The notes under the pieces: model-generated
What the model was told of the DNA's origin: nothing
Database searches by the model: none
What the model saw: only the letters and a program-made list of their open reading frames with translations
Program-made: the position numbers and the translations under genes
Origin: Methanocorpusculum sp.
GTDB taxonomy: Archaea > Halobacteriota > Methanomicrobia > Methanomicrobiales > Methanocorpusculaceae
Assembly (NCBI GenBank): GCA_017387505.1
Contig: JAFOFB010000003.1
Span: 1-64,000, forward strand
Direction of reading: 5' to 3'
Length of the DNA stretch: 64,000 nt
Shown here: piece after piece, positions 37,512 through 43,789 of the stretch
Layout: each line of letters starts with the position of its first letter
Numbering within the stretch: position 1 is the stretch's first letter

Positions 37512-38945
37512 TTAGTAAGAGCGTCCGATTAATGCCGGTTTTGCCGGTTTACCGCAGATGATACATCTGCCTTCATCGTCTGCAACATATTTGCTTCTGA
37601 TTTCGGTTCCAAGAAGCGCGGAGTTGGTGAGTTCTTCTAACTTGTCTGCACATTCGCGGTCACCGCACCAGTGAACAGCAACAACGTTTCCTTCGAGGAC
37701 TTCGTTTGCTTCCTCAACGGTTTCTGCGTGTTTGAGGTGTGCTTCTAAGTGGTTTTCTGCCTTCTCTAAAATCTGGTCGTGTGCTTCGTTTAAGAGGCGG
37801 TTGACGGATTCAACAGCTCCTTCGCGTGGAATCTGAGTCTTTACACCAAGGCGGTTGACGCAGACGAGCTGTTTGTTGTCAAGGTCACGCGGGCCGATTT
37901 CAACTCTGAGAGGTACACCGTTGAGCTCCCAGTGGTAGTACTTTGCACCAGGTCTCATATCACGCTTGTCGGTCTTGACACGAAGTCCTGCTGCTTTAAG
38001 CTCTGCTTCGAGCTCTGCTGCTGCTGCTAAGATTTCGTCTCCGCGCTTTCCAACGATAATCGGGATGATGACAACCTGAGTTGGTGCAACAGTTGCCGGA
38101 AGGACGAGACCTTTGTCGTCACCGTGTACAGCGATAATTGCGGCAAGGCTTCTCTCGGAAATTCCAAAGCAGGTCTGGGATGCGAGCTTCTGCTCTCCGT
38201 TGACATCTTCGTAGGTGATGTCGAAGGTCTTTGCGAAGTGGTCTCCTAAGTGGTGGACGGTTCCAATCTGGAGGGTTCTTCCATCCGGGAAGACTGCATC
38301 GACTGCAATAGTGAAGTCTGCTCCAGGGAATTTGTCCCAGTCCGGGCGCTTGGAGATGATGATTGGGACACCTAACTCGCGGTAGAACTCTTTTGCGAGC
38401 TCGATTTCGTACTCAACCTGGTTGTTTGCATCCTCCCAGTCGGTGTGGACGGTGTGAGATTCCATGAAGGAGGTGATTTCTCTGACACGGATTAACGGAC
38501 GGGTGTGCTTTGTCTCGTAGCGGAAGGTGTTTACAATCTGATAGAGCTTGAGCGGTAAGTCTGCGTGGGAACGTACCCATAAGGAGTACATCGGGTAGAT
38601 TGCAGTCTCACTGGTCGGTCTGAGTGCGAGCTTGACATCAAGAGGGGTTAAACCGCCGTGAGTTACCCAGTAAACTTCGTCTTCGAAGCCTTTGATGTGC
38701 TCGGCTTCTTTCATGAACTCGTTTTCCGGGATGAGAAGCGGGAAGAGTGCTTCTTCGTGGTCGCGGTTTAAGAGACTGCGGAGGAGATTATAGGTGTGCT
38801 GACGAAGTGCGAATCCAAATGGATACCATACGTTAAGTCCCTTAACCGGGTATCTTACGTCGATGATATCTGCACGGCGGATGACTTCGTTGTACCATGC
38901 ACTGAAATCAGTGCGTGAGGGTAAGCCTTCTGTTTCTTCTGCCAT
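37512..38945 (-). CDS. proS: Prolyl-tRNA synthetase, archaeal/eukaryotic type
   Basis: Class II synthetase, 477 aa. Motif 2 region [17 protein letters not shown] (about 143-159), motif 3 near [22 protein letters not shown] (about 275-296), anticodon domain, and the C-terminal zinc domain ending [17 protein letters not shown] with a Tyr C-terminus typical of type 3 ProRS. It is divergent from def across 106 bp. Confidence 0.94.
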
Positions 38946-39051
38946 TGATATTGTTCACCTAAGCATATTATGTTGGACCCGTGAGAGTATTAAGATAGAG
39001 GTTGGGCTTTGCGGCATGTTGATGATTTCCTGCGTTCAATATACTTACAGC

Positions 39052-39540
39052 ATGGATATCCAGATATACGGAAAACCGGTTTTAGCCGCTGTTGCCGAAC
39101 CGGTAAAAGAAATCACCCCCGAACTCCTTGAAATCTTAGACGAAATGGTTCCAATGCTTTCCACTCACCGAGGCGTTGGCCTTGCCGCTCCGCAGGTTGG
39201 AATCTCTCAGAGATTTTTTATCATGAATGCGGGAGACAAACTTAGAAAAGTCATCAACCCTGAGATTATCAAAGCAGGCTCTGCTCAGGCTGAGATGGAA
39301 GAAGGTTGTCTCTCGGTTCCGGGAATCCACAAAAAAGTCCGCCGTCCGCGTCGTATAACTGTCCGCTACACAAACGAAGCAGGAGAAACCGTAGAAGAAG
39401 AACTCAAAGACTTCCCTGCACGTGTTTTCCAGCACGAATACGATCACTTAGACGGAGTTTTATTTGTCGACCGTTTAACGCCTGTCGCACGCAAACTGAT
39501 TTCCAGACAGCTTGAATCATTAAAGGAGGAAGAAGAATGA
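39052..39540 (+). CDS. def: Peptide deformylase, canonical type (162 aa)
   Basis: Removes formyl from N-formyl-methionine of new proteins. All three signature motifs are intact: GVGLAAPQVG (41-50), EGCLSVPG (84-91, Cys metal ligand) and HEYDHLDG (128-135, two His ligands and catalytic Glu). Start chosen at 39052 (MDIQIYGKPVLAA). Length is bacterial-like. Its stop overlaps the start of fmt (ATGA), so the two are an operon. Archaea normally start translation with unformylated Met, so an active-looking def-fmt pair here is remarkable and suggests bacterial origin. Codon use and base composition look like the neighbours'. Confidence 0.92.
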   Translation: MDIQIYGKPVLAAVAEPVKEITPELLEILDEMVPMLSTHRGVGLAAPQVGISQRFFIMNAGDKLRKVINPEIIKAGSAQAEMEEGCLSVPGIHKKVRRPRRITVRYTNEAGETVEEELKDFPARVFQHEYDHLDGVLFVDRLTPVARKLISRQLESLKEEEE

Positions 39541-40481
39541 GAGTAATTTTTATGGGAACGCCGGAGTATGCAATCTCATCGTTAGAGGCAGTCTATGCCG
39601 AGCATGAAGTGGTTGCTGTTCTCACCAGAGCAGACAAGCCGAACAAGAGAGGAAACAAAATCCAGTTCTCTCCTGTAAAAGAGTTCGCACTCGCCCACAA
39701 CATCCCGGTATTCCAGCCGGAAAATCTGAAAGACGAAGCACTCTACAATGAACTTGCTGCTCTCAATCCTGACATTTCTGCGGTTGTTGCATATGGAATG
39801 ATGATTCCAAACAACATCATTGACCTCCCGAAGATGGGAACAATTAATGTTCACGGCTCCCTTCTTCCAAAATACCGCGGAGCAGCACCGATGCAGTACT
39901 CAGTTTTAAACGGAGATGAAACTGCCGGTGTAACTATCATGTATGTCTGCGAGGCTCTTGACTCAGGAGACATTATCTTAAAGAAAGAGATTCCTGTCGG
40001 AGAAGACGAGACTTTTGGAGAACTTCATGACCGCCTTTCTGTATTAGGTGCTGTGGCTCTTGTTGAAGCAATGCGGGAAATTGAGGCTGGAACTTCCACC
40101 AGAACTCCGCAGAATTCTGCAGAGGCAACCTTCGCCCCATCGATTAAGAAGGAAGAGTGTGTGATTGACTGGTCTCTTCCATCTGCACAGGTTCACAACC
40201 GTGTTCGCGGTCTCTCTCCGATTCCGTGTGCAAACACCCGTCTCCCTGATGGAAAGCTTCTGAAAATCTACCGTACGGAAAAGGTCGAAGGATATTCTGG
40301 ACAGCCTGGCGAAATTGTGGATGTAATCAAAAAGAAGGGATTTGTTGTTGCATGCGGAGACGGAGCAGTATGTGTTGTCTCTGCAAAGCCTGAAGGAAAG
40401 CGTGAGATGCCTGGATTTGAGTTAGTCAACGGGCATTATGTAAAAATCGGTGATGTTTTTTCAGCAGGAAACTCCTGCTGA
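39537..40481 (+). CDS. fmt: Methionyl-tRNA formyltransferase (314 aa)
   Basis: Would formylate Met-tRNAi using 10-formyl-THF. N-terminal formyltransferase domain (1-~190): MRVIFMGTPEYAISSLEAV, NVHGSLLPKYRGAAPMQ (104-120, catalytic Asn104 and His106) and EALDSGDIIL (139-148, catalytic Asp145). C-terminal Fmt OB-fold domain (~205-305): VHNRVRGLSPIPCANT is the Fmt-specific hinge, which separates it from PurN and sugar formyltransferases. Full bacterial length. The formyl donor is a question, because methanogens mostly carry one-carbon units on H4MPT. Confidence 0.9.
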   Translation: MRVIFMGTPEYAISSLEAVYAEHEVVAVLTRADKPNKRGNKIQFSPVKEFALAHNIPVFQPENLKDEALYNELAALNPDISAVVAYGMMIPNNIIDLPKMGTINVHGSLLPKYRGAAPMQYSVLNGDETAGVTIMYVCEALDSGDIILKKEIPVGEDETFGELHDRLSVLGAVALVEAMREIEAGTSTRTPQNSAEATFAPSIKKEECVIDWSLPSAQVHNRVRGLSPIPCANTRLPDGKLLKIYRTEKVEGYSGQPGEIVDVIKKKGFVVACGDGAVCVVSAKPEGKREMPGFELVNGHYVKIGDVFSAGNSC

Positions 40482-40488
40482 ACTTTTT

Positions 40489-41859
40489 TTAGAATGCGTA
40501 GCTTGCAGGGTTGAAGAATGCAAGCATTAAGTTGTAGAACTCTTTGATGATGTCGAGCGGGTTCGGAATAAATGTTGTTTTTGGGAAGATGTATGTTGCT
40601 TTGATTGAATTTGCATCTACCGAGATAACTTCTGCCTGTTCACCGTTGATATACACAATTGTCTCTTTATCAAAAGCTGTATTTGAACTGCTTATAATTG
40701 GTATGGTAACTGTTGATGTGTATTCAACACCTGCTTCAAACTCACCTTCAATCAGAGATGGACTCCAGGTAATAGTTGCCGCATTGGCAGAACCGCTTGG
40801 ACTGGTTTTGACATATGTTGCTTTTGTAGAGGCAACAGCTCCTGTTGCCGGAGCATCAACAGTTACGTCCACAGTACTAACAGAAGCAATCTGCGCGAAA
40901 GTGTAAGAAACCGTAGCCTGCGTATCACTGATTCTCTGTACGTACGCCTCAACACCGTTTACCTTTGCTGTGACGGTTGTATCAAAGAGGTAACCGTATT
41001 TTGCATTGATGGAGATGGTTGTCGTGTAGGAAGTATCCGGCTTGAATGTTCCAGACGGACTCCATGAAGCACTGCCGGTAAACATATTTGAGTTTGTCGT
41101 AATTGTTGATGTTGGTGATATTCCAACCGCAGGTGCTGTCACTCCCAGATTCATGGAGGAGATACGCCCTAATTCCTTAGTTTTTGGATAGGTGTAAGTT
41201 AGAGTGACTGTATCTCCGCTTTTTGAAATCTGATTATCTGCAAGAGTATATCCGCCGATTTTCGCATCGATTGAACTCGATGACGAAGCCCATTCATATT
41301 TGTTGGATTTCAGTTTGAGTTTGATGGTGACAGTATATGCCTTATCCATCAAATATGTTGAGTCATTTGGAGACCATGAGATACTGTCTACTGATGCAAC
41401 TGATTTTCCTTCGTTTGTATCGACAGTGACAGATTTATCCTGGCTTGCAGAGGTGATAGGGGCTGTGATGTCAAGTATTTCGATTTCATCAATTACTTCT
41501 GCGGCCTCCGTTGAAGAGAATTTATATGAGACGAATCCTGTTTTTCTATCATCGTTTATTTCAATCTTTGTTGCGGCCTTTCCGTTAACAGTTGCGGATA
41601 CTGTATCTGAGAACCCAGCAGATGCAGTAACTTTGACTTTTACTGTATATTCTGTACCTGCATCAAAGGTATCATGATCAGGACTCCAAGTAACAGAAGA
41701 AACAATAACTCCAGAGTTTGCATTGGCACTTGTGTCAGGCTCGTCATCAATATCCGGCGTATCAATTCCCGTGATGGTGATGGTGGATACAGCTCCGTTC
41801 ACACACCCTGCAAGCAGCAACACCGCGAGCAGTACAGTTATTATCTTCCAAATCTTCAT
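40489..41859 (-). CDS. Secreted lipoprotein with four beta-domain repeats (456 aa)
   Basis: N-terminal signal with a lipobox-like LLLAGC (about 15-20), so probably lipid-anchored outside the cell. The rest is about four ~95-residue repeats, each with WSP, an (F/D)xAGxxYT segment and a YTF/YKF strand end: VSSVTWSPDHDTFDAGTEYTVKV, VDSISWSPNDSTYLMDKAYTVTI, GSASWSPSGTFKPDTSYTTTI, ATITWSPSLIEGEFEAGVEYTSTV. Similar domains occur in surface proteins; ligand unknown. Starts one base after the stop of the PH/Yip1 gene, so they are co-transcribed. Confidence 0.75.
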   Translation of the reverse strand: MKIWKIITVLLAVLLLAGCVNGAVSTITITGIDTPDIDDEPDTSANANSGVIVSSVTWSPDHDTFDAGTEYTVKVKVTASAGFSDTVSATVNGKAATKIEINDDRKTGFVSYKFSSTEAAEVIDEIEILDITAPITSASQDKSVTVDTNEGKSVASVDSISWSPNDSTYLMDKAYTVTIKLKLKSNKYEWASSSSSIDAKIGGYTLADNQISKSGDTVTLTYTYPKTKELGRISSMNLGVTAPAVGISPTSTITTNSNMFTGSASWSPSGTFKPDTSYTTTISINAKYGYLFDTTVTAKVNGVEAYVQRISDTQATVSYTFAQIASVSTVDVTVDAPATGAVASTKATYVKTSPSGSANAATITWSPSLIEGEFEAGVEYTSTVTIPIISSSNTAFDKETIVYINGEQAEVISVDANSIKATYIFPKTTFIPNPLDIIKEFYNLMLAFFNPASYAF

Positions 41860-41860
41860 T

Positions 41861-43789
41861 TTAAATCACCCCGATGCAGACAAGTACTGCATAGATAATC
41901 ACAAGTCCGACAAAGGAAGCAGCAGCAGCCACACCTTGCCCCATATCCTGACTTGATGCAATTCCTTTCCAGGCACAGATTGAAGCCCAGATGGATGCGG
42001 CAAACATTCCAAAGATTGGAATCCATCCGCATACTGCAAAGGTCATTGAACTGCGCATCACAACACCCATACATTCGGAGAATGATGCTCCCGGTTCAAT
42101 AAGGGCTGCAAGACCTCCTGAGATTACTGCATGCAGGAGAACTGCAACTGCCCAAAGGACAAACAGCATCAGAATCATGATGACTAAGAGAAGCGGGTTG
42201 TCGGACATAGATGTGATAATCGGGAAAGTTGCCTTATCCAGCTTTAAAATAAGCGGGATGATGAAGGCAAGGAAGAGCACAGTAATCACTGACCATATTG
42301 CTCCGCTTAAGAGGAAGAGCGGAAGTGCCTGCTTTACTCCGTCCCTGCAGTAGTAGGAGAAGGCATCAGTTGGTCTTGTGATGAATCCCATTATACTTCC
42401 GTTGTATGGTGCCTTTGGTTTCGGCATTCTTGGCGTACGTTCCGCACGTACCTTCTCAGGTTTTGCACGTTTCTGAGTTTTCTGTACTCTCTGAGGTCTA
42501 TCTTCTACTGTGGCTGGATGAAGTTCGGCTCCGCAGAACGAACAGTACTCATCGGCCGCATGATTCATTGCATGGCATGAGGGGCAGGATATCTGCTGAG
42601 TGTGAACAGGCTTTTGAGGAGTTACTGTTGTTACTGTGTAGTCTCGGGTCTCCGGAGTTGTGATTGCTCTATCCGGGATAACTTCAGTTAATGCATCAAT
42701 CCAGGCTTCGCGGTCGTTGACTGAGGAGAAGATGATGTGCATCTCCTTCTCACCCATGGATGAACCAATCTTGAGAGCGATTCCAGGCTCGCCGATTTCG
42801 CTAGCCATTCTGACTGCACGGTTTAAGGTGTTTAAGGCAAACTCTCCAACAAGTCCTGACGGGGTGTCAACTACAAAGCGGGTGTTTGTTAAGTGGATTA
42901 CAGACAGTCTGTTTTTGATTCTGACATTCGGAGTTGTAACGAGTGTTTTCTCGTTTGTTGCGGGAACAAAGGTTCCAACTCTCTCAGGTGCTGCCGGCTC
43001 TTCATGTTTTGGTTCAGGTCTGTGTGCTGGAAGTTTTGCCTGCAGTTCACTCATCCATGCGTCACGTGCAGGCTTTGTCGGGAATGAGAGAATCATCTGA
43101 CGAAGGCCTGACTGCATTCCGACAGATAATGCAATTTCAGGTTCACCTGCGTCTGATTCGAGTTCTGCTGCATCTTTGAGGTCTGAGATTGCAAACTCTC
43201 TGCCGATTTTTCCTGCGTTGTTCTGGAGGATTAAGCGGAGGTTGGTTAAGTATATAGTAAAGAATGTGTGCTTGACGCGAACTCCTGCAGTACTGATTGT
43301 GATTGTTTCTCCCTGAATTAAGTCAGGCTCACCTGCAGGTTTTTCTTCAGGTTTGCTCTCGATGATTGTTATTGTCTCAGATGGTTTTGGTTTTTCAGTT
43401 TCGGTCTCGATTACGATGTCTTTGTTGATGTCTGTCCTCGTCTGCTCGTTTTCAGCCGGTACTGCAAGCGGGTTTTCTCCAACTATATTTGTGATGTTGT
43501 CTACCCATGCATCACGTTCTCCTTCCCTGAACTGCTCTGAGCACGGAAATGTCCAGATCATTTCTTTCTGTCCGGCTGGTGTTTGGAATACGATTTTTAC
43601 AGCCGGTTCTCTGTCCTGAAGCGGAATTTGGTAGGCGGCGATTATTGAGGTTGTTTTGAATTCACGCGAGGTTGGCCCATCTATTATGAGCCGTTTGTTT
43701 GTGAGTGTTGCGAAGTACTGCTGACCTTTGACGAGGATTGATGAGGCATAGTGCTGTACTTCACCATCATTCATCGAGACGGGAGACAT
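41861..43789 (-). CDS. Triple PH-like, zinc-ribbon, Yip1-type membrane protein (642 aa)
   Basis: Three ~100-residue repeats of a PH/GRAM-like fold (about 8-105, 155-255, 275-375; each with a strand LTNKRLIID / LTNLRLILQ / LTNTRFVVD and a final W-containing helix RDAWVDNI / RDAWMSEL / REAWIDAL). Then a zinc ribbon (SCPSCHAMNHAADEYCSFCG, about 398-417), a basic linker and a C-terminal five-helix Yip1-like membrane domain (about 455-640). I know no named function. Suggests membrane-surface sensing or trafficking. Possibly starts at MNDGE five residues later. Confidence 0.7.
   Translation of the reverse strand: MSPVSMNDGEVQHYASSILVKGQQYFATLTNKRLIIDGPTSREFKTTSIIAAYQIPLQDREPAVKIVFQTPAGQKEMIWTFPCSEQFREGERDAWVDNITNIVGENPLAVPAENEQTRTDINKDIVIETETEKPKPSETITIIESKPEEKPAGEPDLIQGETITISTAGVRVKHTFFTIYLTNLRLILQNNAGKIGREFAISDLKDAAELESDAGEPEIALSVGMQSGLRQMILSFPTKPARDAWMSELQAKLPAHRPEPKHEEPAAPERVGTFVPATNEKTLVTTPNVRIKNRLSVIHLTNTRFVVDTPSGLVGEFALNTLNRAVRMASEIGEPGIALKIGSSMGEKEMHIIFSSVNDREAWIDALTEVIPDRAITTPETRDYTVTTVTPQKPVHTQQISCPSCHAMNHAADEYCSFCGAELHPATVEDRPQRVQKTQKRAKPEKVRAERTPRMPKPKAPYNGSIMGFITRPTDAFSYYCRDGVKQALPLFLLSGAIWSVITVLFLAFIIPLILKLDKATFPIITSMSDNPLLLVIMILMLFVLWAVAVLLHAVISGGLAALIEPGASFSECMGVVMRSSMTFAVCGWIPIFGMFAASIWASICAWKGIASSQDMGQGVAAAASFVGLVIIYAVLVCIGVI

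Follow-up and report, generated by a model that had tools for sequence, protein, structure and literature searches.

Whether the initiator is formylated is held to separate bacterial from archaeal translation initiation. Archaeal initiation is of the aIF2 type, unlike that of the hosts of bacterial def-fmt operons, and archaeal aIF2 is not known to require a formyl group. In the bacterial operons (Klebsiella, Bacillus and Paenibacillus), the genes for peptide deformylase (def) and methionyl-tRNA formyltransferase (fmt) overlap or lie close together in this order and are followed by rsmB. Archaea are said to lack FMT in the part of a 2026 review that treats the enzyme (PMC13234167), and a 2023 review, in its passage on the initiator tRNA, holds that archaea do not formylate since the 1:72 mismatch and R11:Y24 were lost (PMC9976931). 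Two other described systems bear comparison: the type 3 peptide deformylases of archaea (PMC12690207) and the cytosolic fMet that eukaryotes make under stress, which the relevant part of the 2026 review traces to a mislocalised mitochondrial enzyme (PMC13234167). The def-fmt pair of Methanocorpusculum described here shares with the bacterial operons the gene order, the overlap or close spacing, both Fmt domains and the three Def motifs, and would be expected to share their 10-formyl-THF chemistry; it differs from them in that fmt is not followed by rsmB and in that residue 41 of Fmt, a Gly in the bacterial operons, is Lys or Arg. It resembles the eukaryotic case, as set out in that part of the review (PMC13234167), in that fMet-tRNAi is here likewise predicted in an e/aIF2 system, and differs from it in having a dedicated operon, a deformylase of its own and a donor supply. 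Among the matches listed in a search of the open-access literature, no title or abstract opening reported an fMet cycle in Methanocorpusculum, although automatic database annotation of the two genes probably exists.

The window, a stretch of 64,000 nucleotides, is part of a 138.8-kb contig from a gut Methanocorpusculum genome of 1.43 Mb (83.5% complete, 0.06% contaminated). On its plus strand def (def1; 39052..39540, 162 aa) and fmt (39537..40481, 314 aa) overlap in the ATGA at 39537-39540, and coordinates and profile scores together bear out the first-pass annotation, which had proposed a def-fmt operon with such an overlap in an archaeon. It had drawn the operon as 38946..40481; the genes are real, but positions 38946-39051 (plus strand) are the intergenic region before def, and we presume that the operon promoter lies there. 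The start of def was set at the ATG at 39052 from homology and from the equivalent start of 162-aa relatives, the mechanical open reading frame beginning earlier, at 38863. Upstream lies a divergent gene on the minus strand (37512-38945), which we take from its sequence to be proS. A terminator-like hairpin with a T-run (40460..40482, plus strand), a match to the consensus only, covers the fmt stop; the region holds four such hairpins, whereas shuffled versions have 2.0 on average. Downstream, two minus-strand genes occupy 40489-43789 and have the sequence features of a repeat-rich surface-type protein (the first) and of a large membrane protein; the first gene 3' of fmt varies strongly in near relatives (40-86% identity).

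Both products score above the curated cut-offs of their families, those of the NCBI equivalog models included. Def reached 148.5 bits against TIGR00079 (pept_deformyl; cut-off 103.95) and 171.4 against Pfam PF01327 (cut-off 22.8), and its motifs I-III are canonical (GVGLAAPQ, EGCLSVPG and HEYDH), just as had been read from the sequence at first pass. Fmt scored 302.5 bits against the TIGR00460 equivalog (cut-off 201.5) and has both domains, with 138.7 for PF00551 (cut-off 26.1) and 81.2 for PF02911 (cut-off 21.1), the latter being the C-terminal domain of its own that had been attributed to it. The catalytic residues had been given as N104, H106 and D145. The first two residues, in the N104-x-H106 motif (codons at 39846..39854, plus strand, counted by hand), are indeed invariant in a 24-row alignment, but the third invariant residue is D142 rather than D145; we take D142, in LD142SGD145, to be the equivalent of PurN D144 and hence, by homology, the catalytic aspartate. 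An AlphaFold model of Fmt had a mean pLDDT of 93.2, and its first 11 matches in the PDB were all solved Fmts, among them 2fmt, the complex with fMet-tRNA, with ArnA behind them.

Over the cut-off, Fmt was found in 24 of the 232 genomes of the order, namely in 23 of the 25 Methanocorpusculum genomes (that of the window included) and in G114, a genome of another family; G035 and G040, the two Methanocorpusculum genomes without it, have a completeness of 73% and 61%. A sample of the phylum gave Fmt in 9 of 392 genomes, all of them Methanocorpusculum, and deformylases were found in 13 genomes of this sample and in 32 of the order's 232. Among named records, Methanocorpusculum isolates come closest, with Fmts that are 94-99% identical; for several of them an animal gut is given as the source. 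As to ancestry, the phylogeny proposed at first pass placed Fmt with bacteria: in a quick tree the Methanocorpusculum Fmts fell among bacterial Fmts (support 97), apart from 14 other archaeal formyltransferase relatives, and in a careful tree (28 bacterial rows, 18 of the 23 Methanocorpusculum rows and G114) the 18 rows and G114 formed one clade (99/99) with Fusobacterium as its sister (99/99). Judged by its place in these trees, the archaeal Fmt is of bacterial origin, and the best reading is that the def-fmt operon was acquired by the Methanocorpusculum ancestor. For Def, the tree singled out no particular bacterial source. Identity as a sugar N-formyltransferase was rejected on the equivalog score, the separate groups of the quick tree and the solved Fmts as best structural matches.

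The Fusobacterium Fmt (47.7% identity), sister in both Fmt trees, carries a related DKPNxRG loop with Ala at position 41, and in its record def and fmt are about 430 kb apart. It is the nearest sampled bacterial relative and not a proven donor, because bacterial sampling was thin: the single scan of named genomes started from six short peptides and gave mostly Campylobacterota, and further bacterial rows were taken from a plasmid collection. The fmt of G114 lay inside the Methanocorpusculum clade in the quick tree; in the careful tree Methanocorpusculum made up one side of a branch that had a support of only 46/89, which concerns the placement of G114, and the def tree put G114 inside Methanocorpusculum (95/85), so that this genome probably received its pair from Methanocorpusculum. 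Beside def-fmt the G114 locus (L248:3713-8183) encodes a formyltransferase scoring below the Fmt cut-off, and presumably also an AMP-ligase-like and a polysaccharide-deacetylase-like protein.

The initiator tRNA of the window's genome has A1:U72, G2:C71, C3:G70, G4:C69, A73 and G11:C24 (standard numbering). A paired 1:72 had been counted beforehand against a formylation cycle, and as far as the tRNA goes this is what was found: A1:U72 is present in all 40 initiators read across the order, and none has the mismatch. The minor determinants G2:C71, C3:G70, G4:C69, A73 and G11:C24 (R11:Y24) are likewise present in 40 of 40. (The set derives from 41 loci, L267 not being a tRNA; L231 was dropped as a duplicate of L017.) No change in the initiator tracks fmt, these positions being identical in the 17 initiators from genomes with the gene and the 23 from genomes without. 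Acceptor-stem elements and elements of the R11:Y24 class are named as Fmt determinants in the relevant parts of two reviews (PMC9976931, PMC13234167), and, contrary to the corresponding passage of the former, the initiators here have R11:Y24 together with the minor acceptor-stem determinants and lack only the 1:72 mismatch. An unpaired 1:72 is a trait of the usual bacterial substrate and bears on the reaction and not on membership of the Fmt family. In vitro, E. coli Fmt is able to formylate certain initiators of eukaryotes and halophiles. According to section 8 of the 2026 review, ScFmt1 of yeast is inactive on cytosolic Met-tRNAi (PMC13234167). The pairing does not settle the matter, given that the remaining determinants are in place and given the residue that this Fmt has at position 41.

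Fmt reads the acceptor stem by means of a 16-residue loop with Arg42, as described in part of the same review (PMC13234167). The residue before Arg42 is Gly41 in E. coli; its equivalent in the window is Lys37, and the codons of Lys37-Arg38 lie at 39645..39650 (plus strand, counted by hand). The Arg42 equivalent was kept in 93 of 93 Fmt rows, including all 24 archaeal ones. Position 41, by contrast, was basic in 24 of 24 archaeal Fmts (17 Arg, 7 Lys) and in 0 of 69 bacterial ones (66 Gly, 2 Asn, 1 Ala), most of the latter being from Campylobacterota; the 69 rows are counted without L102, a fragment, and L279, a cut gene replaced by L282, both of which were part of an earlier alignment with 57 bacterial rows (56 Gly, 1 Ala). 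In a screen of E. coli Fmt, Ramesh and colleagues reportedly found in 1997 that G41R restores formylation of an initiator from which a critical determinant of the acceptor stem is missing; G41K is said to work too, and Asp, Gln and Leu at this position to fail. We take Arg and Lys at 41 to be the suppressor changes that let E. coli Fmt formylate an initiator with a paired 1:72. If this work holds, the archaeal Fmt would by analogy carry the same fix as G41R and G41K, and the loop change may fit the enzyme to the archaeal initiator tRNA. The likeness is suggestive and no proof, because the basic residue probably arose in one event on one branch and was then kept basic with exchange of Arg and Lys.

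The formyl donor, 10-formyl-THF, had been called unexpected in an organism of this kind, a view that the gene content does not sustain. PurN, a user of 10-formyl-THF, scored over the cut-off in 30 of the 33 genomes of the family, the window's own included, and the scan for folD, fhs and THF genes that had been suggested found Fhs (formate-tetrahydrofolate ligase) and PurN but no FolD over the cut-off in the genus. In the passages concerned, PMC3261824 expects archaea that bear PurN to have tetrahydrofolates; it also speaks of four species called Methanomicrobiales without purN or purT, the species that it then names belonging to Methanothermobacter, Methanosphaera and Methanobrevibacter. None of the 25 Methanocorpusculum genomes has FolD over the cut-off, though six gave weak matches below it (19-25 bits); the sister genus has it in 8 of 8, and so do 11 of 11 further genomes queried in the order. 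Conversely, Fhs was present in 19 of 25 Methanocorpusculum genomes (12 of the 12 with a completeness of 90% or more; 912.3 bits in the window's own, cut-off 652) and in 0 of 8 of the sister genus. No other genome of the order's 232 has Fhs over the cut-off, and all 19 have fmt. Of the five genomes with fmt but no Fhs over the cut-off, G026, G034, G037 and G041 are 78-85% complete, and the fifth, G114, has FolD. As the genus has Fhs and no FolD over the cut-off, formyl groups for translation and purine synthesis could come straight from formate, and the genes point to a source of 10-formyl-THF for an fMet cycle. In one relative (L175:439-4657) fhs is followed by purH and lies divergent from ftr, a locus that joins formyl genes of THF, purine and methanogenesis pathways; in the window's genome (L182) a convergent open reading frame, presumably gyrA-like, follows fhs in place of purH.

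We therefore favour, as probable, a working fMet cycle built on a def-fmt operon of bacterial origin. Fhs would charge tetrahydrofolate with formate to give 10-formyl-THF; Fmt, its basic loop residue 41 tolerating A1:U72, would place the formyl group on Met-tRNAi; some or all proteins would begin with fMet, and Def would strip the formyl group from nascent chains. From the loci at hand we infer formylation of Met-tRNAi in the cell and its extent, the use of fMet-tRNAi at initiation with its handling by aIF2 or aIF5B, and the role of residue 41 in reading the initiator. A bolder version, in which all or most Methanocorpusculum proteins start with fMet, which would make these the first archaea known to do so, with Fmt re-tuned at position 41 and initiation coupled to formate by a donor route switched from FolD to Fhs, is put forward tentatively, at somewhat under an even chance. 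In a genus that keeps the pair under strong selection, the role of formylation in an aIF2 system can be tested directly, the way in which Fmt reads the 1:72 pair can be probed through the naturally occurring loop change, and a methanogen is predicted to be sensitive to deformylase inhibitors.

A milder form of the working cycle, which we rate as a serious contender that still falls a little short of evens, is that formylation by Fmt reaches only part of the Met-tRNAi, for example at high formate or in slow growth, and that Def cleans up while bulk initiation proceeds unformylated via aIF2. The retained A1:U72 and the tie of the donor to formate through Fhs both agree with this, as does the conditional formylation in the yeast cytosol under stress that is described in part of PMC13234167. 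Against it can be set, as weak evidence, that a search of Rfam over 38000-42000 gave no match at the gathering score that would hint at a switch. The data do not separate partial from full formylation, and are equally compatible with both.

Far less likely is a formyl job outside initiation, Fmt acting on a small molecule, sugar or amine and Def on formyl peptides, for example from gut bacteria. The wider formyltransferase family is versatile, for the 14 archaeal relatives that group separately presumably do other work; yet the Fmts considered here keep the tRNA insertion loop and its Arg in 24 of 24 cases, and that of the window has the C-terminal domain and lies about 100 bits above the equivalog cut-off. 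Nor does such a job sit well with the constancy of the pair, which stays joined while the flanking genes vary across the genus: def adjoins fmt at 23 of the 24 fmt loci (14 at -4 bases, 6 at +1 and 3 with larger gaps, one of these a contig-end fragment), and for the sole non-adjacent locus, in G033, def sits on a different contig, next to a further piece of fmt.

That the genes are functionless passengers of a recent transfer now being lost is very improbable; a second deformylase, def2, is truncated in the window's genome, as decay would have it, but selection on fmt is purifying, with dN/dS of 0.012-0.144 at dS up to 1.2 in 10 pairs picked by hand and 0.029-0.126 for def in the 9 of these in which it was measurable (one over only 34 codons), and each of the 23 Methanocorpusculum fmt loci is an open frame of 308-315 aa. 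Loss of function was rejected for def1-fmt on these ratios. In the Fmt rows the loop Arg is conserved along with the NxH and Asp motifs, and def1 shows one-letter variants in motif I in G037, G030 and G020 and in motif II in G037. A bacterial fragment or bad join in an archaeal contig can be dismissed, as the first-pass annotation had thought: nothing was found in its support, the operon is conserved across the genus (23 of 25 genomes, among them the single-contig G024 and G042), which excludes absence from relatives and assembly joins, the genes on both sides recur beside it in close relatives and contamination was estimated at 0.06%.

The second deformylase, def2, lies elsewhere in Methanocorpusculum genomes and is sister to def1 (97/93). 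Its motifs are altered to CVGLSAPQ and EGSPC, and with HExDH kept it fits the type 3 peptide deformylases as characterised in part of PMC12690207, which def1, with its canonical motifs and its place beside fmt, does not resemble. Rows of the def2 type are L256, L251, L252, L254, L249, L156 and L157, and def2 also occurs in G114, G116 and G117, of another family; G116 and G117 (89% and 74% complete) have no fmt over the cut-off. In the window's genome only the C-terminal half of def2 is left (G000:C15:116990-117166; L002:901-1725), fused in frame to an upstream open reading frame for a membrane protein, and in G032 the membrane-protein gene and def2 are separate and full-length (L256:1141-2241 and 2290-2781).
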